Source of the DNA: Chloroflexota bacterium
GTDB lineage: Bacteria > Chloroflexota > Dehalococcoidia > JACPPY01
NCBI GenBank assembly: GCA_016190755.1
Contig: JACPPY010000065.1
Coordinates: forward strand, 1 to 46,293
Direction: 5' to 3'
Length of the DNA: 46,293 bases
Every line of letters starts with the position of its first letter. Positions within the stretch are counted from its first letter, which is position 1. This document shows positions 10,539 to 42,482 of this stretch, one piece after another. The translations under genes and the position numbers were made by a program. A model generated the notes under the pieces. It was not told the origin of the DNA, ran no database searches, and was given only the letters and a program-made list of their open reading frames with translations.

Positions 10539-10549
10539 GATTCAAACTT

Positions 10550-11764: not shown

Positions 11765-11820
11765 GAGGCTGCTATCGAACTAAAACGGTAGATAGTGAAC
11801 TAAGGGTAATATGTTTTGGC

Positions 11821-12500: not shown

Positions 12501-14827
12501 AGGAGCGGTTCGCGATAGTCGGAAAGCGCCTGCCCCGGAAAGACGCTTTGGCCAAGGCCAAAGGCGAAATCAAGTTCGCTTCCGATATCTTCTTGCCAGG
12601 GATGTTGTACGCCGGGTTTTTGCGCAGCCCCTATGCTCATGCCCGTATCAAGAGCATCGACACCTCGCGGGCAGATGCATTACCCGGCGTCAAGAAGATA
12701 ATCAGCTACAAGTCAACAGCACTAAAGGGAGGCCAGACCCTCGGCCAGATACGCGTCCCCCGCAAGTTCGAATGCCTGCTGAATGAGACGGTGCGCTATG
12801 CCGGGGAGGTGGTTGCGGTCGTCGCCGCTGTCGATGCCCAGACGGCGGAAGAAGCACTGGGCCTAATCGAGGTCCAATATGAGGTGCTACCCGCAGTTTT
12901 TGACAAAATGGAAGGCTGCCGTCCGGATGCCCCCAGGATATACCCCGATATGGACAGCAATCTGTACTGCTGCCCGCGCACCGTGAACGGTGTGCTGCCA
13001 CTTGAGTTTGGGGATGTAGAAGAGGGCTTCGCCCGGGCCGACCACATCATCGAGGGCATTTACGACTCCCCCATGCAGCATCCCGTGTCCCCCGAGCCGC
13101 TTTCGGTGGTCTGCGAATGGACTGGAGACAATCTTACCTGCTGGACTAGCAGCCAGCGTCCCCAGGGCACTCGCGAGGATATCGCTATTTCACTGGGCCT
13201 GCCGTTCTCCAGCGTCCGGGTCATCGCCACGAATACGGTAGGAGGCTATGGAGCCAAAAGTCCGGAGAAGATGGCGGCGCTGGTCGCTTTGTTGGCCAAA
13301 GCCACAGGGAAACCGGTCAGAGCGCTCTTCAGCCGGGCGGAGGACTTCGTAGGGACCCACCGCCGCATAGACGCCCGGGTTGAGGCGCGGGTAGGGGTTA
13401 AGGATGACGGCACCATCACAGCCCTTCATACGAAGCTGTATACTAATTTCGGCCGCGATTCCCGGCTTTCCTATTACATCCCCGCCACAGCGGCGGTGGA
13501 CACATGCTCGACACTTTACAAATACGAGACCTCCAAGTTCGAAGGCTATCACGTCATTACCAACACCGAAGATCACGGGGCCATGAACGGGTTTGGCGAC
13601 CCGGAATCCGGGTTCGGCATCGAGCGCCTGATGGATGAAGCGGCCGAGAGGATCGGGATGGACCCCGTCGACTTCCGGCTGAAGAACTGCATGCGCTATG
13701 GCGATAAGGGTATGGAGTTCTTCCCGGCCATGGTGGGGCCGGTGGAATGGGGCGTCGTCGGGCCGGACCTGGACAGCTTCCCGGAGTGCATTCGCCTGTC
13801 AGCGGAAAAAGCCGGGTGGAAGGCCAAGTGGAAAGGCTGGCGTATCCCCGTTGCGGTCAACGGGTCCAGGCGCAAAGGCATAGGCATCGCCATCGGGATG
13901 CACCATTGCATTGCCACCACCCCCGATTCGGGCAGCGTAAAAATGAACAAAGACGGCACCGTAGACGCTTTTTCCAGCGATCCCGAGATCGGGCAGGGCC
14001 TTAAAACGGCCGTAGCCCAGGTGGTTGCCGAGGAGTTGGGCGTGGCCTATGAGAGCGTCAACGTCGTCCTCTCGGACACCAGCATCACGCCATACGGCGG
14101 AGGCGTATTCGGCAGCCGCGGTACCCTCGCGGGCGTGGGTTCGGTCCACCGAGCCGCCCAGGAAGCTAAGCGTAAGCTCTTGGAGCTAGCGGCCAAGAAG
14201 CTGGGAGCCAGTCCGGAAGAGCTTGCCGCGAGGGACGGCTTGGTCTACGTAAAGGCCGATCCCAGACGAAGTATTTCTATTGCTGCCCTTTGTACAGAGG
14301 CTTACCAGATAGTCGGGAACGCCGTCCTGCCGTACCCGTGGACGGACGAGCGCAGCGGAAAGAATATCGTGCCCGTGAGCGTAGCCGTGGCTATCGCCGA
14401 GGTCGAAGTAGATACCGAGACCGGCCTGTTAGAAGTCGAACGTATCACGTCCGCCCACGACTGCGGGCGGGTACTGAATCCGACCATAGTCGAGAACCAG
14501 ATAAACCTTTCGATAACCATGGGTAACGGATACGTACGGAGTGAAGAGATCGTCATCGACAAGACCACCGGGGCTATCCTTAACCCCAATCTTCTGGACT
14601 ACAAGGTGATGACAATACTCGATATGCCCAAAAGTGAAAACGTCAGCGAAATTATGGTCGAGTTTCCCTGCCCCTGGGGGCCGTTCGGGGCGAAAGGTAT
14701 GAGCGAGACTGCCACCACCACTCAGGCCCCCGCAATAGCCAACGCCATCTACAACGCCACCGGGGTACGTATTCGGGGGGCCTTTCTGACCGCCGATCGG
14801 CTACTTGAAGCATTAGCTCGCAAGTAG
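12497..14827 (+). CDS. Mo hydroxylase cluster 3, molybdopterin-binding large subunit
   Basis: The 776-residue catalytic subunit starts at ATG 12497, overlapping the previous stop (ATGA) and preceded by GGGGAGGGG. A longer frame from 12317 reads through the 2Fe-2S gene and is not real. The N-terminus IVGKRLPRKDALAKAKGEIK is typical. The C-terminal active-site Glu is present (GAKGMSETATT). In the segment equivalent to GAFRGFG of xanthine dehydrogenases the sequence is GAMNGFGDPES, so the Arg next to the Mo centre is Asn and the Phe is Met. That may indicate a different substrate or reaction. The form I CO dehydrogenase Cys loop is absent. Confidence 0.92.
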   Translation: MKERFAIVGKRLPRKDALAKAKGEIKFASDIFLPGMLYAGFLRSPYAHARIKSIDTSRADALPGVKKIISYKSTALKGGQTLGQIRVPRKFECLLNETVRYAGEVVAVVAAVDAQTAEEALGLIEVQYEVLPAVFDKMEGCRPDAPRIYPDMDSNLYCCPRTVNGVLPLEFGDVEEGFARADHIIEGIYDSPMQHPVSPEPLSVVCEWTGDNLTCWTSSQRPQGTREDIAISLGLPFSSVRVIATNTVGGYGAKSPEKMAALVALLAKATGKPVRALFSRAEDFVGTHRRIDARVEARVGVKDDGTITALHTKLYTNFGRDSRLSYYIPATAAVDTCSTLYKYETSKFEGYHVITNTEDHGAMNGFGDPESGFGIERLMDEAAERIGMDPVDFRLKNCMRYGDKGMEFFPAMVGPVEWGVVGPDLDSFPECIRLSAEKAGWKAKWKGWRIPVAVNGSRRKGIGIAIGMHHCIATTPDSGSVKMNKDGTVDAFSSDPEIGQGLKTAVAQVVAEELGVAYESVNVVLSDTSITPYGGGVFGSRGTLAGVGSVHRAAQEAKRKLLELAAKKLGASPEELAARDGLVYVKADPRRSISIAALCTEAYQIVGNAVLPYPWTDERSGKNIVPVSVAVAIAEVEVDTETGLLEVERITSAHDCGRVLNPTIVENQINLSITMGNGYVRSEEIVIDKTTGAILNPNLLDYKVMTILDMPKSENVSEIMVEFPCPWGPFGAKGMSETATTTQAPAIANAIYNATGVRIRGAFLTADRLLEALARK

Positions 14828-14837
14828 GAGTAGTACA

Positions 14838-15812
14838 TTGGGCTGCTCGCAACACATCGATGCCACATCGGTAACAGAGGCGATATCCATCCTGCAGAGC
14901 CAGGGAGATAAAGCTGTTCTCGTTGCCGGGGGTACCGACCTGGTCGGCATGCTAAACAACCGTCTGATCTCTCCGGAAACCTTAGTAAATATCAAGACCA
15001 TACCGGGGATGGACTATATTCGCGAGTATAGCGGAGGGCTCAGGATAGGGGCATTGACCCGGATAAGGGATATCGAGACCTCGGCTATCATCAGGGAATA
15101 CTTCCCAGTGCTGGCTGAGGCCGCTGTCTCGGTAGGAAGCCCGCAAATACGGCGCATGGGAACGCTCGGCGGCAACTTCTGCCAGGAGGTCAGGTGCTGG
15201 TATTATCGCCGTTCTCCGGCTACCGGCAAGACTTTCACCTGCTACCGCAAGGGCGGCAACGTGTGCTATGCCACCTCGGGCGACAACCGCTATCATTCCG
15301 TCATTGGTGGAAAGAAGTGCTTCGCCGCGTGCCCTTCGGATATGGCCGTCGCGCTGGCCTCCCTTCACGCCCATGCGACTCTCGCTGGTGCAAGTGGCAC
15401 CCGCAGCGTCCCCGTCGAAGACTTTTTCATCCCTCTGGGAAACATTCTCAAGCCGGGGGAAATGCTCACTGAGGTTAGCATACCGGCCCTCAAGCCCGGT
15501 AGCCGTCAAAAATTCCTCAAGTTCCGCCATAGAAAGACCATCGACTTCGCACTTTGCAGCGTTGCCTCAGTCTTGGAGGTAGAGGCGGGAGTTGTCGCGG
15601 ATGCCAGCCTGGTCCTTGGCGGGGTAGCGCCGTTCCCATACCGTGCAAAGGCTGCCGAGCAGGTCCTCAAGGGGCAGCCTCTGACCGAGGACCTGGCCTC
15701 GGAGGCGGGCGCCGCCGCTCTCAGAGCGGCCAGACCCCTTAGCCTCAATGCATACAAAGTGACAATAGGCCGTGTCCTGGTCAAGAGGGCGATCCTTGGC
15801 GTGGATATGTGA
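14838..15812 (+). CDS. Mo hydroxylase cluster 3, FAD subunit with extra Fe-S insert (HcrB/PaoB-like)
   Basis: This 324-residue FAD subunit has the flavin loop AGGTDLVGMLNNR (30-42) and TLGGNFC (109-115). A Cys-rich insert of about 45 residues follows, absent from the FAD subunits of clusters 1 and 2: C115, C120 (RCWYYR), C135, C143, C161 and C165, ending in PSDMAVAL. HcrB of 4-hydroxybenzoyl-CoA reductase and PaoB (YagS) of E. coli carry an additional [4Fe-4S] cluster at this place, so one is expected here. The start is TTG with AGGAG seven bases upstream. A 4Fe-4S cluster can lower the electron potential and, in HcrB, supports reductive dehydroxylation; whether this enzyme reduces or oxidises is open. 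Confidence 0.9.
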   Translation: MGCSQHIDATSVTEAISILQSQGDKAVLVAGGTDLVGMLNNRLISPETLVNIKTIPGMDYIREYSGGLRIGALTRIRDIETSAIIREYFPVLAEAAVSVGSPQIRRMGTLGGNFCQEVRCWYYRRSPATGKTFTCYRKGGNVCYATSGDNRYHSVIGGKKCFAACPSDMAVALASLHAHATLAGASGTRSVPVEDFFIPLGNILKPGEMLTEVSIPALKPGSRQKFLKFRHRKTIDFALCSVASVLEVEAGVVADASLVLGGVAPFPYRAKAAEQVLKGQPLTEDLASEAGAAALRAARPLSLNAYKVTIGRVLVKRAILGVDM

Positions 15813-19591: not shown

Positions 19592-21019
19592 ATGGACCTG
19601 CGCGAGTTTATTCAGAAAATCGATGAAATGGGGGAACTGCAGGTCATCGAGGGCGCGGACCCCAATCTTGAAATCGGCGCCGCGACCTACCTGGCGGCCA
19701 AAAACCAGGGCAACTTCCCGGCACTCATCTTCGACAAAATCCGCGGAATTCAGCCAGGCTTCAGGGTGATGACGCTGACCTATGCCACTGACCGGCGCAT
19801 GAACCTGCTCCTCGGCCTGCCTCAGGATACCAACCGCATTGGCATAATCAAGGCCCTGCGCGACAAAATATCCCAGCCCCAGAAGCTCATACCGCCTGTT
19901 GAGGTCAATACAGGCCCTGTTCTGGAAAACCTGATACCTGAGGAAAAGGTGGACCTCTCCCAGTTACCCTGTCCCAAGTGGCAGAGCCTGGATGGCGGGC
20001 CTTACATCGGCACCGGCGATATGGTCATCACACGCGACCCGGAGGAGAACTGGGTTAACGTGGGAACATACCGCATCCAGGTCCATGAGCGAAAGACGGC
20101 CACAATATTCATGGAACCCGGAAAGCATGCTGATTTCATCCGGCGGAAATATTGGGCCAAGGGGCAGGCCTGTCCGGTGGCGGTTACCCTGGGCGGGGAC
20201 CCGGTCCATATTTCGGTAAGCGGTACTACCCTGCCCTGGAAGGTCCCGGAATACGATTACATGGGGTGGTGGCAGGGCAAGCCCGTGGAGGTAATCAGAG
20301 GACCGGTCACAGGTTTGCCTATCCCGGCCAATGCCGAAATCGCCCTCGAAGGTGAGATGCTCCCCTTCGAGAAGGATTCACGCCTCGAAGGTCCATTCTC
20401 TGAGTGGACGGGCCATTACACCCCTGCCAGGCCGGAAGCCGCGTTCCACATCAAGGGCATTATCCACCGCGATAACCCCATTATACTGGGCCAGCTACCC
20501 TTCCTGGGCTGCGGCGTCGCCACCGGCTGGACATATCTGTTCAGAGCAGCGCGACTGTGGAGCCATCTGGATACGGTCGTCCCGGGTGTTAAAGGAGTTT
20601 GGAACCACCAGGAGTTCGGCGGTATGCACTGTGTCGTGGTCTCGATCGAGCAGAAGTACGGCGGACACGCCAAGCAGACCGCACTATCAGCGCTCGGGCA
20701 GTTCAACTATTTCCGCAAGTTCGTCATTATTGTTGATGAGGATATCGACCCGACAAATCTCAAGGAAGTCATCTGGGCCATCGGGATGCGTAGCGACCCG
20801 GGAATGTGGGATGTTGTCCGCGAGTGCTGGAGCGGCAACCTGAACCCCATACTGCCACCGGACAAGCGCGCGGTAAAGGACTTCACCCAAAACTCCATCA
20901 TGATTTTGGCCTGCAAACCTTATTACTGGAAAGACTCCTTCCCACCGCGCGTGGTTACCGACAACGAAATCGAGAGCCGCGTCAGGGCCAAATGGCCGCA
21001 GCTACAAGCCAAACCATAG
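19592..21019 (+). CDS. UbiD-family prenylated-FMN (de)carboxylase
   Basis: This 475-residue UbiD-family enzyme decarboxylates aromatic or alpha,beta-unsaturated acids using prenylated FMN. The catalytic Arg-Glu-Glu set appears intact: R161 in VGTYRIQV, and E266 and E271 in EGPFSEWTGHY. The length is usual for the family. ATG follows AAGGAGGG. No UbiX flavin prenyltransferase is present in the window, so the cofactor must come from a gene elsewhere. Co-location with a Mo hydroxylase carrying an HcrB-like subunit suggests a route through an aromatic or heteroaromatic acid (inference). Confidence 0.93.
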   Translation: MDLREFIQKIDEMGELQVIEGADPNLEIGAATYLAAKNQGNFPALIFDKIRGIQPGFRVMTLTYATDRRMNLLLGLPQDTNRIGIIKALRDKISQPQKLIPPVEVNTGPVLENLIPEEKVDLSQLPCPKWQSLDGGPYIGTGDMVITRDPEENWVNVGTYRIQVHERKTATIFMEPGKHADFIRRKYWAKGQACPVAVTLGGDPVHISVSGTTLPWKVPEYDYMGWWQGKPVEVIRGPVTGLPIPANAEIALEGEMLPFEKDSRLEGPFSEWTGHYTPARPEAAFHIKGIIHRDNPIILGQLPFLGCGVATGWTYLFRAARLWSHLDTVVPGVKGVWNHQEFGGMHCVVVSIEQKYGGHAKQTALSALGQFNYFRKFVIIVDEDIDPTNLKEVIWAIGMRSDPGMWDVVRECWSGNLNPILPPDKRAVKDFTQNSIMILACKPYYWKDSFPPRVVTDNEIESRVRAKWPQLQAKP

Positions 21020-21084
21020 CGGTTTAGCGGTCCATTGACCGGACAACGCACTCCAGGCACAAAACAAGAGAGAAGGCAAGACGC

Positions 21085-21534
21085 ATGTTGCTGGAAGGCA
21101 AGTTCATCGTTAAAGCGCCCATTCAACGCACCTGGGACTTTTTGCTTGACCCCGTGACCCTATTCTCATGCGTGCCAGGTGCCGAGAAGATAGAACGCCT
21201 TGACGACAAGACCTATAACTGCGTCATCAAACAGAAGGTCGGGCCTATAGGAGTGAAATTCAAGTTCAAGACCTTGTTGACCAAGGTCGAGGCGCCGAAG
21301 CATCTGGAGTTCTCGGGCGAAGGCGAGGAGGTGGCCCGGGCCGGGCATTTCGTGCAGAAGAGCTCCGTCGACCTGGTGGAGATACCGGGCGGCGTCGAGG
21401 TCACATACCGCTCAGAGGTCAGTATCTCAGGCCGTCTGGCCACCTTCGGCGACCGCATCATGCGGGCCAAGGCGAAGAGCGTGCAGGAAGAGCTTAGCCG
21501 CAACCTCGACGCCAAGCTGAAGGAACTGTCGTAA
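21085..21534 (+). CDS. CoxG-like SRPBCC protein
   Basis: This 149-residue protein begins MLLEGKFIVKAPIQRTWDFL and contains DPVTLFSCVPGAEKIE, both typical of CoxG (carbon monoxide dehydrogenase subunit G family), a START-like SRPBCC fold. CoxG proteins accompany Mo hydroxylases and are implicated in their membrane attachment or maturation. Here it is the only such gene for three Mo hydroxylases, so it may serve more than one. Confidence 0.9.
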   Translation: MLLEGKFIVKAPIQRTWDFLLDPVTLFSCVPGAEKIERLDDKTYNCVIKQKVGPIGVKFKFKTLLTKVEAPKHLEFSGEGEEVARAGHFVQKSSVDLVEIPGGVEVTYRSEVSISGRLATFGDRIMRAKAKSVQEELSRNLDAKLKELS

Positions 21535-21542
21535 GGGGGGGT

Positions 21543-22937
21543 ATGGTGGGAACGACGAGGATCACCGAATTCACAGCTAAAGCCACATTCGCTGATTTGC
21601 CGCCAGAGGTTGTCGTTGTCGCAAAGCGTGGCATTCTGGACTTCATGGGCGTCGCCCTGGGAGGCTCCCGTGAGCCGGCGGCGCTCATCATCCTGGATTA
21701 TGTCAAAGGTCTGGAGGCGAAAGGAGAAGCCTCAGTAATCGGCACTAGCTACCGCACTGCTTCCGAACTGGCGGCTCTCGCCAACGGCACCGCGAGCCAC
21801 GCACTGGACTACGACGATATCTTCGCCAACGCCACCGGATACAACCTTCATCCCTCGGTAGCTATTCTGCCGGCGGTGCTGGGGCTGGCCGACAAGCTGC
21901 ACAGCCCCGGGGAAAGGGTAATCACCGCGTATGTCGTCGGTCTCGAAGTCGCTTACCGGTTAGGGGCGGCCATTGGATTGACTCTCGCTGAAGTCGGCTG
22001 GCATTCGGCTTCGATACTTGGCACAGTGGGCGCAGCCGCGGCGAGCGCCAATCTCATGGGCCTCAACAAGGAGCAGGCTGAGGTAGCTCTGGGCATCTCC
22101 GGTTCCCTTTCAGGCGGGCTTATCCGCAACTTCGGGACGATGACGAAGCCCATGCACGCAGGCAATGGGGCAAGGGCAGGAGTCGTCGCAGCATCGCTGG
22201 CGGCGGGCGGGTTCAGCGCCAACACCAGCGTGATGGAAGACCGCAACGGGCTATGCGGGATGTTCACTGAGGGCCGACGCCAGGGTCTTGACGAGGCTGA
22301 CGCTGACCTGGGTAAGACCTGGGACATCGTTCAGCTCGGGCTAGCCTTTAAGCTACATCCTTCCTGCCGGTCGACCAACGCGGCGATCGATGCCGCTATA
22401 TACTTGCGGGAGAAGTTCGGACTCCGACCGGCAGACGTGCAGGAGATAACCTGCAAGCTCAATCCGATCCACCTTCAGCTAGCCCGTTTCATTAAGCCGC
22501 AAACCGGTTACCAGGCAAAGTTTAGTATCCCGTTCTGTATTGCGCTGGCCCTGGGGAACGGCAGGGTACTGCTCTCAGATTTTACCGATGAAAATGTGGC
22601 TGATGAAAGGCTACAGAACCTGCTTAACAGGGTCAAATTCGTGCATCCGAAGGGTTGGGGAAAGGGGCCTTTGGACCTGGCCACAGAGCTTGAGATCATG
22701 ACCAGGGACGGAAGGAAGTATTCGCACCTGGTGTCGCTGCCGAAAGGCGAGCCACAGAATCCCCTGTCAGACGAAGAGCTGGCGCGAAAATTCGAGATGT
22801 GCGCCTCGCTTGTTATTAAATCCGGAATTCTTCCATCGATACTTGACAGGCTCCAGAATTACGAGAAATTGCAGGATGCCAGTCACCTTTTGGCCCTGAT
22901 AGCAGCGAAGGTAGACAATAAAACGCATCAATCTTGA
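21543..22937 (+). CDS. MmgE/PrpD-family protein
   Basis: This 464-residue protein belongs to the MmgE/PrpD family, which includes 2-methylcitrate dehydratase, cis-aconitate decarboxylase and isomerase-like members. The segment LANGTASHALDYDDIFANATG (about 79-99, counted without gaps) and HPSVAILPAVLGLA match the family's conserved core. ATG follows AAGGGGGG, 8 bases after the coxG stop. The substrate is unknown. It is the last clear gene of the cluster 3 operon and runs up to a repeat fragment. Confidence 0.9.
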   Translation: MVGTTRITEFTAKATFADLPPEVVVVAKRGILDFMGVALGGSREPAALIILDYVKGLEAKGEASVIGTSYRTASELAALANGTASHALDYDDIFANATGYNLHPSVAILPAVLGLADKLHSPGERVITAYVVGLEVAYRLGAAIGLTLAEVGWHSASILGTVGAAAASANLMGLNKEQAEVALGISGSLSGGLIRNFGTMTKPMHAGNGARAGVVAASLAAGGFSANTSVMEDRNGLCGMFTEGRRQGLDEADADLGKTWDIVQLGLAFKLHPSCRSTNAAIDAAIYLREKFGLRPADVQEITCKLNPIHLQLARFIKPQTGYQAKFSIPFCIALALGNGRVLLSDFTDENVADERLQNLLNRVKFVHPKGWGKGPLDLATELEIMTRDGRKYSHLVSLPKGEPQNPLSDEELARKFEMCASLVIKSGILPSILDRLQNYEKLQDASHLLALIAAKVDNKTHQS

Positions 22938-24545: not shown

Positions 24546-25721
24546 ATGATCGGCAAACGTTTGAGACAGACCCGGCTGTCACGCAACCTTTCCCTGGATG
24601 CGCTGGCGGCCAAAATGGGAGGCATCGTCACGAAGCAGGCCCTTTCAAAGTATGAGCTTGACAAGGCGCAGCCATCTCCTGTGGTCTTGGGTAAGCTGTC
24701 TGCTGTCCTGGGGATGAAGGCCATAGACCTAACAGTGGAGCCCTCAATAACGGTGGAGTTCATCGCCTACCGGAGAACCTCGGGTCTTCTGAAGAGAGAC
24801 CGTGCCAGGGTCGAGAGCATTGTTGAGAAATCGTTGGAAGAACGGGTCCGTTTGCAGGAGTTGGCCGGACAGACCGATGGCTCTTCGATTCCGATAAAGG
24901 CGCTACCGGTCCGGAGCATGGAGGAGACAGAGGCTGCTGCCGAACGGATACGCGCTACGTGGCAGTTGGGGCTCAACCCGATAGCTGACCTCACCTCAAC
25001 ACTGGAGGATCACTTTGTGAGCGTGCTGGAAGTGGAAGCCGGTGAGGGATTCGACGGCATTGCCGCGATTGCCTATGACGCGGACCGGAAACCCAAGGCG
25101 GCTGCGGTCGTCACCCGAAGCGGCCTGCCGGGCGAACGCCAGCGTCTAAACCTGGCACACGAACTTGGCCACCTGGTGCTGGACATCTCCGAAGACGTTG
25201 ACGAAGAAAAGGCTGCCTTCCGCTTCGGTGGGGTCTTGCTCGCCCCAGCGGGTGATTTGCGCCGGGCAGTTGGATCCAAGCGGGCGCTCATACAGTCGGA
25301 AGAACTCGTTCTTCTCAAAAAGCGGTTCGGAATGAGCATCCAGGCACTCTTATACCGTCTCCGGGACCTGGACATTATTACCGAGTCGTATTACAAGCGC
25401 TGGTGCATTGAGATCAACAGGCGCAGTTGGAGGAGGCACGAGCCACACCCCTTGCCGCCTGAGAAGCCCCAGTGGATGGAAAGGAACGTGCTTCGAATGG
25501 CCGGGGAGGGACTGATGAGCCGGCAAGATGCCAGGAGGTTATTGGGAGATGCAGTTCCCTTGGAGGAGCCGCTTTCCGTGGTGGAACGACGCGCCTTCAT
25601 GAAGCTGCCGGCGGAAAAGCGCAGGCGCATCCTCGCTGATCAGGCGATGAAAATGGCCAAGCACTATGAGCAGGACACCGAAAGGAAGGAACTGCAGGGA
25701 GGCGACCTGATTGAGTACTAA
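24546..25721 (+). CDS. XRE-ImmA/IrrE metallopeptidase with MazF-antitoxin-like tail
   Basis: This 391-residue protein has three parts. An N-terminal XRE helix-turn-helix spans about 1-62. An M78 ImmA/IrrE zinc peptidase spans about 130-290, with HELGH at 205-209 and the following EEKAAFRFGGVLLAP providing the usual third acidic ligand. The C-terminal 45 residues (MKLPAEKRRRILADQ, then HYEQDTERKELQGGD and IEY) resemble the small stand-alone antitoxins that I recall beside MazF toxins in Cyanobacteria and Chloroflexota. The mazF start overlaps its last codons. It is probably a DNA-binding antitoxin and repressor that can be inactivated by, or performs, proteolysis. ATG follows AGGGAGG. Confidence 0.85.
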   Translation: MIGKRLRQTRLSRNLSLDALAAKMGGIVTKQALSKYELDKAQPSPVVLGKLSAVLGMKAIDLTVEPSITVEFIAYRRTSGLLKRDRARVESIVEKSLEERVRLQELAGQTDGSSIPIKALPVRSMEETEAAAERIRATWQLGLNPIADLTSTLEDHFVSVLEVEAGEGFDGIAAIAYDADRKPKAAAVVTRSGLPGERQRLNLAHELGHLVLDISEDVDEEKAAFRFGGVLLAPAGDLRRAVGSKRALIQSEELVLLKKRFGMSIQALLYRLRDLDIITESYYKRWCIEINRRSWRRHEPHPLPPEKPQWMERNVLRMAGEGLMSRQDARRLLGDAVPLEEPLSVVERRAFMKLPAEKRRRILADQAMKMAKHYEQDTERKELQGGDLIEY

Positions 25722-26067
25722 GCCTCCCAAACGCGGAGAGGTGTGGCTGGTCAACTTTGACCCGACGTTGGGGACCGAGATCAAGAAGACTCGACCGGCG
25801 GTGGTCGTTAGTTCGGATGGTGTCGGGATATTGCCGATAAGAGTCGTGGTGCCGATAACGAAGTGGAAGGATGCCTTCGCTGGCAACTTCTGGCACGTGA
25901 AGATAGAACCTGATGTGGCGAACGGTCTCACGTACGTGTCTGCAGCAGACGCCCTTCAAGTCAGAGGCGTTGATACCGAACGATTCGTTAGGAGATTGGG
26001 GGTACTACCACCCACCACGATGGACGAGATTGCGGCAGCCATTGCCATTGTCGTCGAGTATGAATAG
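25711..26067 (+). CDS. MazF/PemK-family endoribonuclease toxin
   Basis: This 118-residue protein carries the family signatures KRGEVWLVNFDPTLG (6-20), KKTRPAVVVSS (about 24-34) and a VVVPITKW strand. MazF toxins cleave mRNA at short sequences. The start is TTG 25711, overlapping the antitoxin gene by 11 bases and preceded by GGGAGG, so translation is coupled and toxin should be made at a lower level. The length is normal and no motif seems damaged, so it is likely to be active. Confidence 0.9.
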   Translation: MSTKPPKRGEVWLVNFDPTLGTEIKKTRPAVVVSSDGVGILPIRVVVPITKWKDAFAGNFWHVKIEPDVANGLTYVSAADALQVRGVDTERFVRRLGVLPPTTMDEIAAAIAIVVEYE

Positions 26068-26155
26068 GGACTCTGGAGTCTAAAGAGCGTAACGGAAGTC
26101 TCCGTAGCGAGACAATGCTTTATCCGGGCGCGAAGTGAACGTTCGAGTGCAAAGA

Positions 26156-29100
26156 ATGGACACCATATTCACGGTTCATAACACAGACCTCGAAAGACTC
26201 TCTGCGGAACAAGCAGTCGATCTGTTTCGGGAACTTCTTTGGGCCGAGGCGACGACCACCGGGATCGCGAAGAACCTGATAAACGTGCCGAGCGCAATCA
26301 CAGTCCAGGATGGCGGGGTAGATGCCGAGGTACAAAATGCCCCAATCGCCGGTGGCCAAGGGCTCATAAAGCAGGGTCTGACGCGCTATCAGATCAAAAC
26401 CGGCAGTTTCTCTCTGAGCGGCGATGCGCATGTGAAGGACATCCTGTTCCGCAAAGACGCTACCGATCTCAAACCCCGAATCAAATCCTGCCTGGACATC
26501 GGCGGCACCCTGGTTGTCGTGCTTTTCGGTTGGGACAATCCGGAGACACAAGACACTCAGGTCAAACAGAAGTTCATCCAACATTTGCGGGCGGCTGATG
26601 GACAATATGCGGACGCCAAGATCGAGGTCTGGCGCCAGAACAACCTGCGGAGCTTCCTCTCAAAGTTCCCTTCCCTAGCTCTCAGTGTGACGGGGCATGA
26701 CCACGCACTTCTTCAGTCCCATCGCAGCTGGTCTCGACAAGACGATATGCTCAGGGATTTCGTGGGAGGAGTTCCTCAGCACGAGTCCATAGAAACGCTA
26801 CGTACGGAATTGCGCAAGGAAACGCGGGCAGTGCACGTTCGTGTCTGGGGTGAAGCAGGAATTGGGAAGACGAAACTTGTGCTGGAAGCTACCCGCGCAG
26901 ACGACATATCTCCTCTTGTGGTGTATTGCGATGCCGCCAGCAAGTTCAGAGACAGCAGCCTAATGAACGAACTGATGAGAGAGGACAATAGTTTCTCGGT
27001 CGTCCTCGTCGTTGATGAATGTGACTCAGACAGCCGGTCCTACATATGGAACAAGTTCAAGCACTGCGGACCCCGGATCAAGCTGGTTTCTATTTACAGC
27101 GAATTAGACCCAGCGACAGGGGACCTCGTCTACATCGATGCTCCGCCCCTTGTGAAAGAGCAAGTCCTTGCTATCCTGCAAAGCTACGACCTTCCCAAGG
27201 ACCAGGCAGAAAGATGGTCCGATTTGTGTGGCGGCTCGCCGAGGGTTGCCCATGTCATCGGGGCTAACTCCAGGAACAACGGTGGAAACCTGCTCATGCC
27301 GCTGGATACGGTGAACGTCTGGGCCCGCTGGGTCGAGGGTTCGGACCCGCCGGACGCCGAAATCGTACGCCAGCGCAAGCTGGTCTTGCGATACATCTCG
27401 CTATTCAAGCGATTCGGCTATCGAAAGCCTCTGGTTGCCGAGGCCCAAGCTGTGGCCAAACTTGTTGAGCAGGCGGACCGGAACGTCACGTGGCCCAGGT
27501 TTCAAGAGATCATCACCAATTTGCGGCAGAGGAAGATCCTTCAAGGCGAGACCACGCTATACGTGACCCCAAGGGCCCTTCATGTATGGTTATGGCTGGA
27601 TTGGTGGACGATATACGGCGAAACCTTTGACTTCGATGAGTTCACCAAACAGTTACCTCCTGCGCTGGTCGAATGGTTCATGGAGATGTTCGTGTACGCA
27701 GCAGGCTCTGAGGCATCGGCGAAATCTGTCTCCGATCTCCTTGGCCCCCACGGACCGTTCAGGCATGAGGATTCCCTGAGGTCCGAGGCTGGTGCGCGGT
27801 TTTTTCTGAAGCTGTCCGAGGCGGATCCCAAGTCAGCCCTGGCATGCTTGAAACGAACAGTGGGGGAATGGAGCAAAGATAAACTGCTTCAGTTCACTGA
27901 CGGCAGGCGACAGGTGGTATGGGCCCTCCAGAACATCGCGGTCTGGAGAGACTTGTTCCACGAGGCCGTACTGCTCCTGCTGGCCCTTGGAGAGGCAGAA
28001 AACGAGCACGGCATTTCTAACAACGCAAGCGGGGTCTTTACCAGCCTATTTGCAGTTGGCCCTGGACCTGTTGCCTCAACCGAGGCTCCTGCCGAGGAAC
28101 GCCTGTCCATCATAAGGAACGCCATCTCCTCCGACTCAGGCGAACGACGGAGGCTTGCGATCGCCGCGTGCAGTGTGATGCTGGAGGCGCGGCATTGGGC
28201 CCGCTTTTCGGACCCGGAAAACCAGGGCCTTCGTCCAAAAGCCCACTTGTGGGTGCCGAAAACCTATGGCGAATGGTATGACGCCTGTCGCCTTGCCTGG
28301 CAGTTGCTGCGGGAGGCCATAGATAACCTGCCGGAAGGAGATCGGTCGTTAGCACTTGATAGGCTGATCGAGCGGGCTCGCGGCCTGACCAGCGTTCCCA
28401 ACCTCGCGGACATGGTCATCGACACGGTTCGAGACCTGGCTTCCAAGGACTATGTGGACAAGAAGAAGATCCTTGGGCAAGCGATCGAGATTCTTCACTA
28501 TGACGGCGAGGCTCTCCCGGACAAGACTAGGAAGAAGTGGGAGGAAATCAGGGACGAGCTTACCGGCAGCGATTTCAGTGCACTCATGAGACGCTATGTA
28601 GGTATGGATTTGCTCGAAGATAGGTTTGACGAACAGGGCAATCGAATAGACCAGGCTCAGCCGAAGATTGAGCGACTTGCACAGCAGGCTGTGGACGACG
28701 CGGGTCTCCTGATGGGCGAACTGCCATGGTTGGTAACGAGCGACGCTGAGAACGGCTTCGGGTTCGGATACGCATTGGGCGAGCGCGATGTAGCCTCAAA
28801 ATTCCTCCCCGTTTTACTGGACGCCCAAAAGAGTGCGGGCTCCACCTCAAGCCTCTACTTGCTGGGCGGTTACTTCCGTGCTCTCCGAGAGAAGGACGCA
28901 CAAGCATGGGAGAGTCAACTCGACGCTCTGGCACGGGACCCGCAAACAGTAGTTTGGGTGCCTGAGATCACCTGGAGATCGGGCACCCTGTCAGATATGG
29001 CAGCGAGACGGGTCCTGCAACTCGCTCAGTTAGGGACAATTGCCATCCGGGACTTCAGGATGTTTGCCTTCGGCGGCGTTATCCGGGGCCTTTCTAAGGA

Positions 29101-29947
29101 AATGTTCGAGGAGTGGATCTCTTATCTTCTTGATAGCCCAGTAGAGGTGGCAGTGCCAATCGCGCTGGACCTCTATACCATGTACTACCACGACAGAGCG
29201 CCCGGCACCGAATTGCCGGAGAAACTGACTTCGAGGCTGTTGACCCACGACATTCTCTTCCAAGCTGGCCCCTTCGGACGCTTCCACATGGAGGTTTACG
29301 ACTGGGCCGTGATAGGCAGGGGATTCCTGCGGGACCATCCCGAAGCATCACTGGTGGTTGCCGAGAAGATGCTCGAACACTGGGGAGAAGAGGGGAGTAT
29401 CATCGAGGGCTTCCATTCAGAAGCTAATACCCTCCTGAATGCCATTGCCCGGCGATTTCCCCGCGAAGTGTGGCTACTCGTCACGAGGTTTCTCGGTCCG
29501 CCCATCGACGCTCGCGCCTTTCACATTAGAGAGTGGCTGAGGGGAGACGATGCGTTCCAATCAGGAGCCGGGGGGATGCTGGAAGCTTTTCCGCCCGACG
29601 AACTCTGGCAGTGGGTTGACGGCGACGCGGACCGGAGAGCATGGTATGCGGCTAGCTTCGTGCCTGCGTCCCTGTTCCGAATTGATGGGAAAGTATGTCT
29701 CGCTCGGGAACTTCTCATACGTTACGGTGAAAGGGAAGAGGTACGCCGCAATCTGATGGCCAACTTCTCCACCGAAGGCTGGTCGGGCTCAGAGAGCGAG
29801 CACTATCGGCGTAAGAGAGACCAACTTCTGGATTTCGTTCGCGATGAGACCGAAGAACGGGTCAAGCACTGGATCGATGAGTACGTGTCAGGTTTGAACG
29901 AACAAATCAACGTGGCAGTTATCAGAGAGGAAAGAGAAGAATCCTGA
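26156..29947 (+). CDS. Putative anti-phage protein: Mrr-like nuclease, STAND NTPase, helical repeats
   Basis: This protein is about 1263 residues long. Residues 1-180 look like an Mrr-type PD-(D/E)xK nuclease: DGGVDAEV at 52-59 gives the acidic residue and YQIKTG at 78-83 the QxK. A P-loop NTPase follows with Walker A GEAGIGKT (232-239), Walker B VVLVVDECD (282-290) and a later GGSPRVAHVIG. The remaining 850 or so residues are mainly helical and probably form repeats that sense a target. Nuclease-STAND proteins of this plan (Avs group) recognise phage proteins and then degrade DNA. The frame opens at GTG 26135, but ATG 26156 fits better; neither has a strong ribosome site. It directly follows the toxin-antitoxin pair. 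Confidence 0.75.
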   Translation: MDTIFTVHNTDLERLSAEQAVDLFRELLWAEATTTGIAKNLINVPSAITVQDGGVDAEVQNAPIAGGQGLIKQGLTRYQIKTGSFSLSGDAHVKDILFRKDATDLKPRIKSCLDIGGTLVVVLFGWDNPETQDTQVKQKFIQHLRAADGQYADAKIEVWRQNNLRSFLSKFPSLALSVTGHDHALLQSHRSWSRQDDMLRDFVGGVPQHESIETLRTELRKETRAVHVRVWGEAGIGKTKLVLEATRADDISPLVVYCDAASKFRDSSLMNELMREDNSFSVVLVVDECDSDSRSYIWNKFKHCGPRIKLVSIYSELDPATGDLVYIDAPPLVKEQVLAILQSYDLPKDQAERWSDLCGGSPRVAHVIGANSRNNGGNLLMPLDTVNVWARWVEGSDPPDAEIVRQRKLVLRYISLFKRFGYRKPLVAEAQAVAKLVEQADRNVTWPRFQEIITNLRQRKILQGETTLYVTPRALHVWLWLDWWTIYGETFDFDEFTKQLPPALVEWFMEMFVYAAGSEASAKSVSDLLGPHGPFRHEDSLRSEAGARFFLKLSEADPKSALACLKRTVGEWSKDKLLQFTDGRRQVVWALQNIAVWRDLFHEAVLLLLALGEAENEHGISNNASGVFTSLFAVGPGPVASTEAPAEERLSIIRNAISSDSGERRRLAIAACSVMLEARHWARFSDPENQGLRPKAHLWVPKTYGEWYDACRLAWQLLREAIDNLPEGDRSLALDRLIERARGLTSVPNLADMVIDTVRDLASKDYVDKKKILGQAIEILHYDGEALPDKTRKKWEEIRDELTGSDFSALMRRYVGMDLLEDRFDEQGNRIDQAQPKIERLAQQAVDDAGLLMGELPWLVTSDAENGFGFGYALGERDVASKFLPVLLDAQKSAGSTSSLYLLGGYFRALREKDAQAWESQLDALARDPQTVVWVPEITWRSGTLSDMAARRVLQLAQLGTIAIRDFRMFAFGGVIRGLSKEMFEEWISYLLDSPVEVAVPIALDLYTMYYHDRAPGTELPEKLTSRLLTHDILFQAGPFGRFHMEVYDWAVIGRGFLRDHPEASLVVAEKMLEHWGEEGSIIEGFHSEANTLLNAIARRFPREVWLLVTRFLGPPIDARAFHIREWLRGDDAFQSGAGGMLEAFPPDELWQWVDGDADRRAWYAASFVPASLFRIDGKVCLARELLIRYGEREEVRRNLMANFSTEGWSGSESEHYRRKRDQLLDFVRDETEERVKHWIDEYVSGLNEQINVAVIREEREES

Positions 29948-37021: not shown

Positions 37022-38368
37022 TTACTTTTCGCCTTTTGACGAACTCCCTGGTACGAAGGCTATGAGCTCGTATCCAACTGTGCAGCTTGGGACCCACAAG
37101 TGACTGGCGGTGCGGAATATCGTTGTTGGTGGAAGCCCGTCGCCCAGGGCCTCTCTCCAGACCTCCTCGGCCTGGGCCAGCTCGTTAAGGTCGAAATGCA
37201 TGGCGCGCCTGCGGACCAAATTCCTGACCGATGTGCCACCTGCCTGGCAAATAGCGTCCACATTCTTCAGAATATACTCGACCTGGCGTGAGGCGCTGGA
37301 GGAGTGGAAGGGGAAGCTGGGGTCGACTCGTGCTTCCGGGGCTATGCCATGCCTGTAGTCGGTGGCCAGCTGTCCGGAAAGGAAGAGATAGGGGCCGGCC
37401 TTGATCGCGTGTGGCTCATGGCCGATCGGCTGTGGTACACCGGGCGAGAAGACCGTCTCTTTACGATAAGGACCCCGAGGATCGACGGCGAAGAGCTCGA
37501 TCTCAATGATTCCGTAGGGACTCGATTGGACCGTGGGTAAAATGGTCCGCGCCGGAGGGTCGGTGGGGAAGAACTTGCGCCATACTTCGTCCATGCCGGC
37601 GATATCTTTCATATCATTCATGTGGAGATCGGCCTTGACCACATGCTCCAGCGAAGCGCCCATATCCTGGAGCACAGATCTCAAATAGTTCAGAGCGTGC
37701 TCTGTGTGAAACTTGATCGGGTTGTCGCGGTAGGGGAAATCAGGATGCAGGATTCGGCCCCCCGGTGGGATACCTTGTTTATCAGCGAAGGCCAAGCTTG
37801 CAGGCCTTCCTTGAGTGAAGATAAAGCCACCTCCCCGGACCGCCTGTACGAATATCGGGTGGCCGTAGACATGGTCCAGCAATGGTCGAGTCTGGTCGGT
37901 CTTCTTGTGTAACGCCTCTCGATCCATCCTGGAGCCGGATGCCAGGGCTATCAAATCGTTGGTCACGGATGCGCCTCTGACCGCAGTCTCCGGGACTATT
38001 ACCAGCGTACTTGGAGGGGGTGTTTTCGCTCCGAAATAGTCCCTCCTGACACGGAGGGCCGCGTCTATCTCTGCGCTATTGGTGTGATATGAATTGATCT
38101 TCATACCACGTTTGATAGATGAGCCAGCCCTCTCTAACGTTTGTGCCATACTATCGTAAATGTAACGGAGCTGGCGATCTATACTGGAACCATGATACGG
38201 GTGGTGATGCAGAGGCTTGACTTCCTCCGGTACGCCTTTTACGGGATGTGCGGCAATACCTCCGGCGAAGAACACGAAATCACCAGCGCGAGCTGCCAGC
38301 GGCGGTACTCCAGACGGGGCATCAGCATGCCTGAAATACTGGACTTCCATTCCGTCATCCCCTGTCAT
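37022..38368 (-). CDS. Triple RidA-domain protein A
   Basis: This 448-residue protein holds three RidA (YjgF) domains in one chain, at about 8-145, 165-297 and 302-440. Each shows the domain pattern of a first hydrophobic strand (FVFFAGG, GFIFTQG, YLFLSGQ), a helix and a closing strand. The substrate-binding Arg of RidA is seen only in the middle domain (R274 in PPARTILP); domain 1 has PPPSTL and domain 3 LPPTTI. RidA normally works as a homotrimer, so this may be a single-chain trimer with one working site. The ATG at 38368 overlaps the end of the neighbour gene by about 20 bases on the far side of its stop; ATG 38350 is an alternative. Confidence 0.85.
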   Translation of the reverse strand: MTGDDGMEVQYFRHADAPSGVPPLAARAGDFVFFAGGIAAHPVKGVPEEVKPLHHHPYHGSSIDRQLRYIYDSMAQTLERAGSSIKRGMKINSYHTNSAEIDAALRVRRDYFGAKTPPPSTLVIVPETAVRGASVTNDLIALASGSRMDREALHKKTDQTRPLLDHVYGHPIFVQAVRGGGFIFTQGRPASLAFADKQGIPPGGRILHPDFPYRDNPIKFHTEHALNYLRSVLQDMGASLEHVVKADLHMNDMKDIAGMDEVWRKFFPTDPPARTILPTVQSSPYGIIEIELFAVDPRGPYRKETVFSPGVPQPIGHEPHAIKAGPYLFLSGQLATDYRHGIAPEARVDPSFPFHSSSASRQVEYILKNVDAICQAGGTSVRNLVRRRAMHFDLNELAQAEEVWREALGDGLPPTTIFRTASHLWVPSCTVGYELIAFVPGSSSKGEK

Positions 38369-38386
38369 AGTCCCTGGTCGAGGCGC

Positions 38387-39811
38387 CTAGCTTGTCATGC
38401 CCCATAGCTGTATTTCCAACCTTTCTCCTCCCCTCGACTTAGGCATATGTTGAGTGCGCTGGTGATATTGCCAGTAGAATGCCACTTCGTCAACTGGAAT
38501 TATGGTGGTGGGGGGGATATGCCCCCCAAAGACTATGTTGGCCACACTTTGTACTGCTGGCCACTCCAGCGGGTTGACCATGTACAAGGTCTGGTGAATT
38601 ACCTCCTCAGGCCTGGTCTGGATATTGTCGAGCATGTAGTGGTAGATGTGCCAGGCCTTTGCCATGATGGTTTCGTTGTCATCGATGCGGCTTTGCGCCA
38701 AAAAACGCCCCTCATCCTCGAGATCGCCGAACGACACAATGTGCTCCTGCTTCGCGATATCGACTGCGATCATACCTGCGGCGAGCCAGTAAGGCCCCCC
38801 TCTGGCCAGAGCCGAATATCTGCCTACCACATCGGTATCGCTGTACCTCAGCGATTGTTTTTTTATATCCCCCGGCAGCAAAGCTACCGCGCCCCTGATT
38901 ATCACCACATCGGATATGATGCTCAGGTTGCTAAGGCGGCAGCCGGTCGAGGGTGCTGACCGCTCAACCTTTTGGTGAAGCTTCCTTCTCAGGTACTCGC
39001 GCTCGGCAGCTTCCTTCATACCGTGCCGGTAATAGCCCCACGTGTGCAAGATGTCGTCCATGCTGGCTCCCTGGCTTTCCAGGATAAGCCTGAAGTATCT
39101 GTTGTACAGAAGCCAGAACTGGGCCTTCATCGCTTCCGACGTGGGGTCGATGTACAGACCTTCTAGCTCGCTCTTGGCCTCTTCGCCAACCTCATCCAGG
39201 GTCGTCACCGGACGCCCCGTCTGGGAATCGACGCCCCTTACGCCGTCGAAGAACAAGAGTTGGCCTGCCTTGACCGCGGCCGGGTATGGACCGAAAACTC
39301 TTTTTAGCTCCGGAAGATAGATGGTTTCCTTCCTCAGACCGCCAGCTTCTGGTACAAGGGCGATAACCTCCACCCAGATACGGACATCCTCATGTAGCCC
39401 ACGGTCGGGGACCCCCAGTATCAGCGTAACCGGCTTCTCCTCAGGGAAAAAAGTGAGCATGACCCTCTCCATCCACCCGACGTCGGAAATATCACGGAGG
39501 AAGATCCGCTGTCGAACTATGTCCCTTAACGAAGCGCCTTGCCTCTCAAGTATCCTGGACAGGTTCTGGTATATTGTCCACGTTTGAGCCATGATCGGGC
39601 TAACGTAGGCATTAAGGTGATGCGCCATCGGAATAGCGAGTTTCTTGCCGACGTCTGGCGGCAGGTCAACGAAGTCCCGAACTAGCTTTCCAGTGTCAAC
39701 GTCAACCGACGTCTGCGGAGACAGAAAGAGGAATTGGCCTGCCCGGGTGCCTGTGGGGACGGCGCCGGGTAATTCGGCCCGGGGTTGATGCCAGAAGTCT
39801 TGCCTGTTCAT
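38387..39811 (-). CDS. Triple RidA-domain protein B
   Basis: This 474-residue protein also has three RidA-like domains, at about 15-153, 158-312 and 317-472. Matching segments are FLFLSPQTSVD, LLFFDGVRGVD and YWLAAGMIAVD, each followed later by GASL/GASM-type helix turns. None of the three keeps the Arg that is typical for deaminase activity (KPVTLI, RLSNLS, PPTTII), so it may be a structural partner or bind another ligand. The stop is 18 bases before the protein A start; the two could form one complex. AGAGGTG precedes the ATG. The upstream spacer holds a repeat element. Confidence 0.82.
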   Translation of the reverse strand: MNRQDFWHQPRAELPGAVPTGTRAGQFLFLSPQTSVDVDTGKLVRDFVDLPPDVGKKLAIPMAHHLNAYVSPIMAQTWTIYQNLSRILERQGASLRDIVRQRIFLRDISDVGWMERVMLTFFPEEKPVTLILGVPDRGLHEDVRIWVEVIALVPEAGGLRKETIYLPELKRVFGPYPAAVKAGQLLFFDGVRGVDSQTGRPVTTLDEVGEEAKSELEGLYIDPTSEAMKAQFWLLYNRYFRLILESQGASMDDILHTWGYYRHGMKEAAEREYLRRKLHQKVERSAPSTGCRLSNLSIISDVVIIRGAVALLPGDIKKQSLRYSDTDVVGRYSALARGGPYWLAAGMIAVDIAKQEHIVSFGDLEDEGRFLAQSRIDDNETIMAKAWHIYHYMLDNIQTRPEEVIHQTLYMVNPLEWPAVQSVANIVFGGHIPPTTIIPVDEVAFYWQYHQRTQHMPKSRGGERLEIQLWGMTS

Positions 39812-39880: not shown

Positions 39881-40216
39881 TAGTAAGGCCAAGGTGAAAC
39901 CCGCAGGACCCCGAAATCACCTTACCATCAGTCCTTAGTGTGCTATTGACTTCCCTGTCCCTTTCTACCAGAGGATATGTGATAACCTTGTATGGGCAGC
40001 CTCTGGGTTTGGGGGGTGTCATTCTGGAGGAGTCCTTCCCTACTGGGTTTGAGGTGTCATTCTGGAGTCCCATCGGGACGAAGAATCTCAGGGAGGAGTG
40101 GGGTTTTGGTCCTCCCCGCCCTGAGATTCTTCCGCTTCACTGCGTTCAGCGTCCAGAATGACACCCCTCCTAACACCCGCACCAGCAGCCATGTAGTTCC
40201 CATCTTGGCCTTGGTG
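39881..40216 (-). mobile_element. MITE-like element R1, copy interrupted by a palindromic repeat
   Basis: The outer parts match the full copy at 31101-31269 on the opposite strand, from CACCAAGGCCAAGATGGGAA at the 40216 end to TTGGCCTTACTA at the 39881 end. TA flanks both ends (39879-39880, 40217-40218). About 165 bases (near 40005-40170) are inserted relative to the full copy, after the GTTAGGAGG equivalent. Confidence 0.7.
40016..40166. repeat. Palindromic REP-like repeat (GGTGTCATTCTGGA family)
   Basis: GGTGTCATTCTGGAGTCCC begins at 40049 and is matched in reverse by TCCAGAATGACACC ending at 40166. Inside, GAAGAATCTCAGG pairs with CCTGAGATTCTTC. A further head copy, GGTGTCATTCTGGAGGAGTC, starts at 40016. 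A half copy lies at 44626. Short repeats of this kind are spread through Dehalococcoidia genomes in my recollection. Confidence 0.75.
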
Positions 40217-40260: not shown

Positions 40261-41445
40261 CTACTTCTTGGCGCCTGTCAGCTCTTTCCAGAACTCACGG
40301 GATTTGTTCAGGTTTTCCGCGGTCATTACAGGGGTCATCATGAACGAGCCGATCCCTTTCTCTTTCAAAATGCGGTTCGCCGCTGTATCACCAGCCCCAG
40401 TATTCAGGGATGGGCTGAACATGATGCTCGTGAATATCGCAGCTCCCTCCGGAGAGGTCAGCCAGTCGGCAAACAACCGCGCCGCGTTGGGGTGGGGCGC
40501 ATCCTTCAGTATTCCTATACCGCTCGGTTTCGCTGGAAGCGGGGAAAGCGGGACCGGTGCCACCGGCAGCCCGCTAAGCTCCTTCTCCTTCATGGCAACA
40601 TTAGTTGCGGTATAGTTGAATACTTCGAACTCCCCCGCGCCGAGGAGCTTGGTGGGACCGGTGTACAGGTTCACGATCCTTGGCTCAGTATTCTTGAACA
40701 CCTCTCGCCAGAAGCTAAATGACCTGTCCCAGTCCAGCTTTCCGCCAGTCCCCCATATGGCCGCGAGCCCCAGTGGAGCTTCCTCAGCCGATAGACTGGC
40801 CGCCGACTTGCCCTTCCACTTCGGATCCTTGAGATCATCCCAGGACTTTGGCACATTGGCTCCGGTAAGTATCTTCGTGTTGTAAGCGGGCCCATTTAGG
40901 TTGAAATGTGTCCGTATGTAGAGGCCATTCCACTGCACTGCATCCGCAGGGTAGTACGAGGCGTTGGGCCAGTCGTGCTTTGCCAGCAGGGACTGAGGAA
41001 ACAGGAGCCAGACCTCATCAGCCATGCCCAGAACGTCAACGTTGTGGGCGCCCCCCTTGTTCTCGGCGATGACTTTCTCAGCAACCGTTGTATTGTCAGC
41101 CTGCCATGTCTCCACCTTCAGCCAGGGGTAGCGCTCTTTGAACTTGGTCAACCACTTATCGACATCGGTGGCAAAGGAGGCCCAGAAGATTATGCTTCCC
41201 TCTTTCCTGGCGCCGGCTTCAAGTTGCTGTTGTCGGCTGAGCGTCGTGGTCGGCGAGGGCGATGGCTTTGCCGTCGGCGAAGCAGATGTCGAGAGAGCTG
41301 AGGTTGACGACGACTTTGCCGCCTGAGAGGATGTGGTGGAAGGCTGAGTTGTTTGCTTAGCACAACCGACCAGCAGCGCCGGTAACAGCAAGACAGCAAC
41401 CAACGAAAGAACACCGGCCATTACTAACAGACTTTTCCTTTTCAT
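40261..41445 (-). CDS. ABC-type substrate-binding lipoprotein (orphan)
   Basis: This 394-residue binding protein has a signal peptide with lipobox LLVGC (C28), a Ser/Thr/Pro tether to about residue 70, and an extracellular solute-binding fold of the Fbp/family 1 type. Recognisable segments are ARKEGSIIFWASF near the start, SWDDLKDPKWKGK and HPNAARLFADWLTSPEG. No permease or ATPase gene is adjacent, so it must use a transporter encoded elsewhere or act as a receptor. Its ATG overlaps the nitrilase gene stop by 4 bases, with GGAGGAAA upstream. Confidence 0.9.
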   Translation of the reverse strand: MKRKSLLVMAGVLSLVAVLLLPALLVGCAKQTTQPSTTSSQAAKSSSTSALSTSASPTAKPSPSPTTTLSRQQQLEAGARKEGSIIFWASFATDVDKWLTKFKERYPWLKVETWQADNTTVAEKVIAENKGGAHNVDVLGMADEVWLLFPQSLLAKHDWPNASYYPADAVQWNGLYIRTHFNLNGPAYNTKILTGANVPKSWDDLKDPKWKGKSAASLSAEEAPLGLAAIWGTGGKLDWDRSFSFWREVFKNTEPRIVNLYTGPTKLLGAGEFEVFNYTATNVAMKEKELSGLPVAPVPLSPLPAKPSGIGILKDAPHPNAARLFADWLTSPEGAAIFTSIMFSPSLNTGAGDTAANRILKEKGIGSFMMTPVMTAENLNKSREFWKELTGAKK

Positions 41446-42482
41446 TTTCCTCCTCCAGAATCGCTTATTTGAATAGGCTGTCCACTTGGCTTCCTGGTAG
41501 ATCTGCGAACCCTCTCGTACTCTTTCTTCCAGGCCTCAAGGCCTTGCTTGTAGTAGAAGTAATCGTAGGCGTCCGGGTCCGGCTCTACGAGCTTGTGATA
41601 CAGGTCAGGGCGCCGAAGGTGTATCACACCAGGCTTGGTAGACCTTGGCCGGTGATCGGCAGACGGTGTGAGGGAATAGTCGTCCGCCTCCTCATACCTG
41701 GTCCTTAGACGCCATAGGCGCTCCATGTCAAGGGTGGCATAGACAATGCCGGCGCTTCGCGATGCCCCCAGTATCCCCTCTGGCCCGGCAACGAAGGAAC
41801 CCCGATGTTGCTCAGTTGAGAAGACATTTATTGTGGTAACAACGTAGAGGAGGTTTTCGGCAGCCCTGGCACGTGCGATGCACTGCGTGGTAGATAGGTG
41901 CCCGTCTGGCATTGGCCGGGCAAAGTCCTCTATTCTGTGCGATCCTCCAAAGGGAGCCAGAATGATCTCGGCGCCCATCAGCATCTCAACGCGGGCCAGC
42001 TCAGGTATGTATAGCTCAGTGCAGATCAGCAGCCCTATCCTGCCCAGCTCAGTATCAACTACCATCGGCCCGTCTCCGGGTAGCAGGTGCATCTTCCCAC
42101 CATAGAGGTGGGCGTTGGTGAACGGCTGTGTGGGCTGGCATCTCCTGTAGTTAGCCAGTATCTTACCTTTTGGCGAGATGAGCTTGTTAGTAAGGTAGTA
42201 GGCGCCGGAAAGGTCCTTGCTCTCCTCCAGATTGCCACAACTGATGTAGACGCCGTTGCGTTTGGCGCTATCGCACATCATTTCGACAGGGGTCTTGGCG
42301 AGATGACCTCCGCTATCCATCGGACCGAAGCTGGGGCCGGGATACCCCTCAGGAAAGCAAACCAGTTCAGCGCCGTTTTTCACCGCTTCGTCAACATAGG
42401 CCTCGGCCCGTCCAGTATTCTTGTACTCATCGTTCCCATCAAATGACGCCGTGGATACGGCAGCAACCCTCACTTCTTTCAC
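41442..42482 (-). CDS. Nitrilase-superfamily carbon-nitrogen hydrolase
   Basis: This 346-residue protein has the nitrilase fold. The catalytic Glu is seen as E45 (CFPEGYPG) and the nucleophile as C154 (LLICTELYIPELAR). The catalytic Lys normally found in a YRK motif is Arg here (NYRR, R114). That change would be expected to lower or alter amidase or nitrilase activity unless another Lys takes over. The start is GTG with AGGAGG five bases upstream. It is coupled to the following binding-protein gene, which suggests a nitrogen-compound substrate taken up from outside (inference). Confidence 0.88.
   Translation of the reverse strand: MKEVRVAAVSTASFDGNDEYKNTGRAEAYVDEAVKNGAELVCFPEGYPGPSFGPMDSGGHLAKTPVEMMCDSAKRNGVYISCGNLEESKDLSGAYYLTNKLISPKGKILANYRRCQPTQPFTNAHLYGGKMHLLPGDGPMVVDTELGRIGLLICTELYIPELARVEMLMGAEIILAPFGGSHRIEDFARPMPDGHLSTTQCIARARAAENLLYVVTTINVFSTEQHRGSFVAGPEGILGASRSAGIVYATLDMERLWRLRTRYEEADDYSLTPSADHRPRSTKPGVIHLRRPDLYHKLVEPDPDAYDYFYYKQGLEAWKKEYERVRRSTRKPSGQPIQISDSGGGK

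Follow-up and report, generated by a model that had tools for sequence, protein, structure and literature searches.

RidA is a widespread metabolite-repair enzyme, with active sites located between subunits. In the window, the whole stretch of 46,293 nucleotides analysed here from the genome of an uncultured Chloroflexota bacterium, apparently of the class Dehalococcoidia (2.09 Mb, 98 contigs), two neighbouring genes each encode three RidA domains in one chain. This locus raises the question of which of the six domains keep a RidA-type pocket, and whether the two chains belong to one system. The two genes, referred to as A and B, and the pair upstream of them lie on the same strand:

37022-38368, reverse strand: protein A ORF, 448 aa
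38387-39811, reverse strand: protein B ORF, 474 aa
40261-41445, reverse strand: solute-binding lipoprotein, SBP_bac_8 (Pfam PF13416, E 9e-17)
41442-42482, reverse strand: carbon-nitrogen hydrolase, nitrilase/amidase family (Pfam PF00795, E 5e-31)

B comes first in the direction of transcription, and 18 bp separate it from A. The solute-binding protein (SBP) gene is the next gene upstream of B, at a distance of ~450 bp. Its start is overlapped by 4 bases by the carbon-nitrogen hydrolase gene, whose best NCBIfam model, N-carbamoylputrescine amidase, scores far under the cut-off. Three tRNA genes lie downstream of A. Between the SBP gene and B, at 40000-40170, we notice an inverted-repeat-rich element. 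It has the look of a dispersed repeat, since pieces of it recur across the genome, with 14 matches when its own is counted. Because the gap of ~450 bp holds this repeat, co-transcription of B and A with the upstream pair is uncertain.

Three RidA domains in each chain

Pfam PF01042 matched A with E=4.2e-29 in three stretches and B with E=4.2e-20 in two stretches. In a scan extended to E 1, PF01042 was the only model on B, and A gave a sub-threshold NDUF_B5 match besides PF01042. Single pieces corresponding to five of the domains (A1, A3, B1, B2 and B3) were aligned by hhalign with a profile built from 19 single-domain RidAs, while A domain 2 holds the best PF01042 stretch of that chain. The six domains and the evidence for each are as follows:

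37928..38368, reverse strand: A domain 1, residues 1-147 (hhalign E 1.3e-12; Pfam stretch; AlphaFold2 secondary structure)
37469..37927, reverse strand: A domain 2, residues 148-300 (best PF01042 stretch 218-295; alignment to E. coli RidA)
37022..37468, reverse strand: A domain 3, residues 301-448 (hhalign E 7.4e-13)
39344..39811, reverse strand: B domain 1, residues 1-156 (hhalign E 3.9e-16; closest to PDB 3lyb)
38870..39343, reverse strand: B domain 2, residues 157-314 (hhalign E 2.1e-7)
38387..38869, reverse strand: B domain 3, residues 315-474 (hhalign E 1.9e-4, probability 48%; AlphaFold2 strand-helix order)

B domain 1 matches PDB 3lyb by phmmer (E 6e-14), and the same structure is its top Foldseek match. 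B domain 3 is strongly diverged and the weakest of the six, supported mainly by its predicted fold. The earlier note's reading of three RidA domains in each of two neighbouring proteins is borne out by Pfam, hhalign (E 4e-16 to 2e-4) and AlphaFold2. Both chains thereby carry the three tandem RidA domains of a 3x-RidA.

Three packed RidA-type units predicted in each chain

AlphaFold2 predicted three beta-alpha-beta-alpha-beta-beta units in A (pLDDT 80, pTM 0.86) and likewise in B (pLDDT 72, pTM 0.81). Searched by Foldseek, the single units match RidA structures. Chorismatases, which are related to RidA trimers, consist of one chain with pseudo-threefold symmetry. The chorismatases FkbO/Hyg5 (PDB 4bps, 5a3k, 5ag3) are the best whole-chain structural match of A, covering 395-401 columns with a target TM of 0.62-0.66; however, the identity is 13-16%, and the chorismatase family models of Pfam were not matched.

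The trimer-like single chain proposed in the earlier note stands as far as three tightly packed units are predicted per chain and A matches chorismatases over its whole length. Judging from the domain order and the models, one chain of A or B would probably form the ring normally built from three subunits. A sequence search of the PDB returned no full-length three-domain RidA, every RidA chain found being at most 165 residues long.

One substrate arginine among six domains

Using E. coli K-12 RidA as the pocket reference, we compared the residues at the site of Arg105 (also the TdcF/RidA numbering) and at Glu120. In A, the Arg105 site is occupied by S120 in domain 1, R274 in domain 2 and T415 in domain 3. 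In B, it is T129 in domain 1, a residue other than Arg at 287-289 in domain 2 (the exact position depends on the alignment) and T435 in domain 3.

37547..37549, reverse strand: R274 codon, CGG (sequence and alignments)

The alignments agree with the earlier claim that R274 is the only substrate-binding Arg of the six domains. The Arg of the imine-hydrolysing RidA subfamily is present in A domain 2 only, and this is also the sole domain having both the Arg and the equivalent of Glu120. According to the study that defined the RidA subfamilies, replacing Arg by Ala at this site nearly abolishes imine hydrolysis by RidA (PMC4433059). Given this effect and the distribution of Arg, we expect no RidA-type pocket in B and no more than one in A. 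The pocket that A appears to keep would have at its centre R274 and the Glu of domain 2 that corresponds to Glu120.

A domain 3 (37022-37468) has an arginine, R419, four residues past the Arg105 site (TTIFR). R419 is common to both orthologs in the genome G727 and to some relatives, and it could face the pocket instead.

Relatives and their arginine patterns

Scanning the named genomes with A alone as the query gave no relative. An alignment-based scan of these genomes gave 43 loci, distributed over Nitrospinota, Acidimicrobiia, Marinimicrobia, Pseudomonadota, Rokubacteria and Chloroflexota. In plasmids, nothing beyond short matches turned up, all to RidA genes of single-domain size. In the host's class three-domain RidA proteins are common, with about 10 genes in the genome G031, several of them in tandem, and seven in G727. 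Two loci of G031 (L041 4191-9778 and L040 6712-11009) contain an NMT1-type binding protein gene followed by two or three tandem R-R-M 3x-RidA paralogs.

Among 57 three-domain proteins, the residues at the three Arg sites fall into the types S-R-S/T/N, R-R-M/L, T/A-R-R and C-C-C, together with types lacking Arg. The R-R-M/L type is found in the G031 paralogs, in Rokubacteria and in one SAR116 gene. The Ser-Arg-Ser/Thr/Asn pattern is kept in the family of A across Nitrospinota, Actinomycetota, Pseudomonadota, Marinimicrobia (Fidelibacterota) and Chloroflexota. Some relatives of A have no Arg at any site (L044, L047, L048, L086), indicating that RidA chemistry is not universal among them.

In the tree, A groups with two G727 proteins of 55-58% identity with support 100/100. 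B could not be placed, its branch being very long at 2.5 changes per site.

Three-domain RidA genes often adjoin solute-binding protein genes

In about eight lineages, 3x-RidA genes adjoin same-strand SBP genes, which belong to five unrelated Pfam families: SBP_bac_8 (the window, L053 and L054), NMT1 (G031), Bmp (Acidimicrobiia and SAR116), TctC (Rhizobiales) and Peripla_BP_6 (Rokubacteria). A reference search in the host's class found an SBP gene in 0 of 39 same-strand neighbourhoods of single-domain RidA, and no binding-protein family is among the 25 commonest Pfam families of these 39. The comparison of 8 lineages with and 13 without the link against 0/39 gives a Fisher p of 8e-5, a rough figure: the lineages, counted by hand, lack full independence, genes in G+C-rich loci were called crudely, and neighbours were taken from slightly different windows in the two sets.

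Other neighbours of the relatives include CN_hydrolase, isochorismatase-type hydrolase, M24 (creatinase-like) and molybdenum hydroxylase genes. The clusters of Acidimicrobiia combine a CN_hydrolase, a cupin, ABC permeases and ATPase, a molybdenum hydroxylase subunit and an M24 (creatinase-like) protein. The window repeats the theme with SBP_bac_8 and CN_hydrolase. The closest orthologs of A adjoin CoA-transferase or housekeeping genes, not a transporter.

Elsewhere in the window, on the forward strand, we notice three further regions. A single-domain RidA protein of 184 aa is encoded at 522-1076, directly 5' of three molybdenum hydroxylase (xanthine dehydrogenase-like) gene sets (~1079-15812). 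UbiD-type decarboxylase, CoxG and MmgE/PrpD proteins are encoded at 19592-22937, preceded by a set of molybdenum hydroxylase genes and by an uptake system that includes an NMT1-like binding protein; this region suggests aromatic or heterocycle catabolism. At 24546-29947, a protein with an HTH and an IrrE-type peptidase is followed by a small ORF (25711-26064), MazF/PemK-like by eye, and then by a 1270-aa ORF, for which no Pfam match was found.

A possible function of A and B

The reading we favour, to which we give an even chance, is that A is a one-pocket RidA-type deaminase/hydrolase in a cluster for uptake and catabolism of nitrogen compounds, with B as a diverged paralog. The domains, the predicted folds, the pocket residues and the neighbouring genes are observed here, while the chemistry, the substrate, co-transcription and any contact between A and B are what we infer. 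Based on the gene neighbourhood, the upstream binding protein would take up a nitrogen compound, and the carbon-nitrogen hydrolase would act on it. A would most likely deaminate or hydrolyse an enamine, imine or similar compound arising from that breakdown. B, having no substrate Arg, probably has a related compound as its ligand or substrate and does not use RidA chemistry on it, or it may be under weaker constraint. The papers found report no activity or substrate for any 3x-RidA.

Could A and B instead have left RidA chemistry, acting as ring-opening or lyase-type hydrolases at a new site, like AtzD and the chorismatases from the same fold? The whole-chain match of A to chorismatases is consistent with such a change, as are the lack of Arg in most domains and the neighbours of nitrilase and isochorismatase type, together with molybdenum hydroxylases of heterocycle catabolism. 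AtzD provides a precedent, as it is proposed to be three RidA-like units concatenated into one chain whose centre has taken on a new role (PMC3758960). However, A domain 2 retains both the Arg and the Glu120 equivalent, and no AtzD- or chorismatase-specific Pfam model was matched. We regard this change of chemistry as rather unlikely.

Pairing of A and B

The earlier note had suggested a catalytic chain paired with a structural or regulatory one, and had called for a survey of how often the two genes co-occur. Neither of the two A orthologs in G727 (58% and 55% identity) is adjoined by B. Two partly overlapping samples, 400 genomes from the phylum and 393 from the class, gave only A-type or single-domain matches and no B ortholog. 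These results do not support the pair as a conserved system. Loss of Arg from two of three domains is, moreover, common to the family of A across phyla, so a partner chain is not needed to explain it.

Other pairs of 3x-RidA genes are built differently. Those in G031 are tandem paralogs of one type, and in SAR116 (L095) an S-R-S gene and an R-R-L gene flank isochorismatase and Bmp genes in one apparent operon. Since A orthologs occur without B and other pairs are built differently, the pairing would be a loose habit of 3x-RidA genes rather than a conserved A-B system.

That A and B nevertheless form one functional complex in this genome, A being the catalytic and B the structural or regulatory chain, seems to us improbable. 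The two genes are adjacent on one strand with 18 bp between them, the proteins differ in Arg retention, and SAR116 likewise places two 3x-RidA genes of different Arg type around isochorismatase and Bmp. Yet the partner in SAR116 belongs to the R-R-L type and does not resemble B, and same-type tandem paralogs are common (G031, L040-L041), making adjacency alone weak evidence; the orthologs of A without B and the undetected B orthologs also argue against a complex. It is equally hard to credit that B is a decaying or relaxed paralog without present function, as its very long branch, the absence of Arg from all its domains and the missing orthologs might suggest, because its ORF of 474 codons is intact and lies immediately before A, RidA features are recognisable in all three domains and the predicted fold is confident.

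Origin of the three-domain chains

In a tree of single domains, those of the A family tend to cluster according to their place in the chain, which a single ancient concatenation would produce. For L053, L055 and L045, each protein's own three domains cluster together. A single origin was rejected for all first, all second and all third domains (p 0.0007, 9e-35 and 5e-5, respectively); without L053, L055 and L045, that of the first domains was not rejected (p 0.20). A shared concatenation event for every 3x-RidA is rejected by these trees, which suggest either several concatenations or homogenised repeats.

The L053 gene (6758-7957, reverse strand) encodes a 3x-RidA in which each of the three Arg sites holds Cys, and it adjoins an SBP_bac_8 gene. 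Its domains are 74-80% identical to one another, and it is either a recent triplication or a homogenised repeat.

Relation to known single-chain RidA proteins

The name 3x-RidA was given by Niehaus et al. 2015 to presumably covalently linked trimer units, and fusions of two or four RidA domains are rare according to the same study (PMC4433059). The statement of the earlier note that no system of this kind had been described is therefore superseded, and AtzD is likewise a single chain (PMC3758960). The 3x-RidA architecture itself is not new; A and B add to it. The example EF_0115 of Enterococcus faecalis has the same three tandem RidA domains and the same covalent-trimer reading (PMC4433059). 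Compared with the published description of EF_0115, A and B differ in being a pair of adjacent genes that have diverged strongly, A having one substrate Arg and B having zero.

All six domains share fold and sequence family with RidA/YjgF/UK114 (PF01042; E. coli RidA, PDB 2dyy, 1x25, 3lyb), and A domain 2 has the substrate Arg and Glu of this family, but its known members are single-domain, unlike A and B. The AtzD/barbiturase 'Toblerone' fold is also one chain, proposed to be concatenated from three RidA-like subunits (PMC3758960). It has a central site with Ser-Lys dyads; A and B, however, gave no AtzD family match in Pfam or NCBIfam, and AtzD is absent from the top 50 structure matches of A.

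In the literature searched, we found no later work on 3x-RidAs and no report of their activity or structure, and a SAR202 pangenome paper does not mention RidA. The conserved asymmetry of the A family, the possible repeated concatenation and the SBP link seem unreported in that literature, which was mostly non-subscription.

We tentatively speculate, at somewhat less than even chance, that repeated independent concatenation in uncultured bacteria has produced asymmetric single-chain catabolic enzymes with fixed live and dead pockets, tied to dedicated uptake, of which the A family would be one single-site class in at least five phyla. The neighbourhoods of 3x-RidA genes point to transporter-linked catabolism of nitrogen compounds in uncultured bacteria. 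Single-chain RidAs let each site evolve separately, and may thus serve as natural experiments in how a symmetric enzyme becomes asymmetric.
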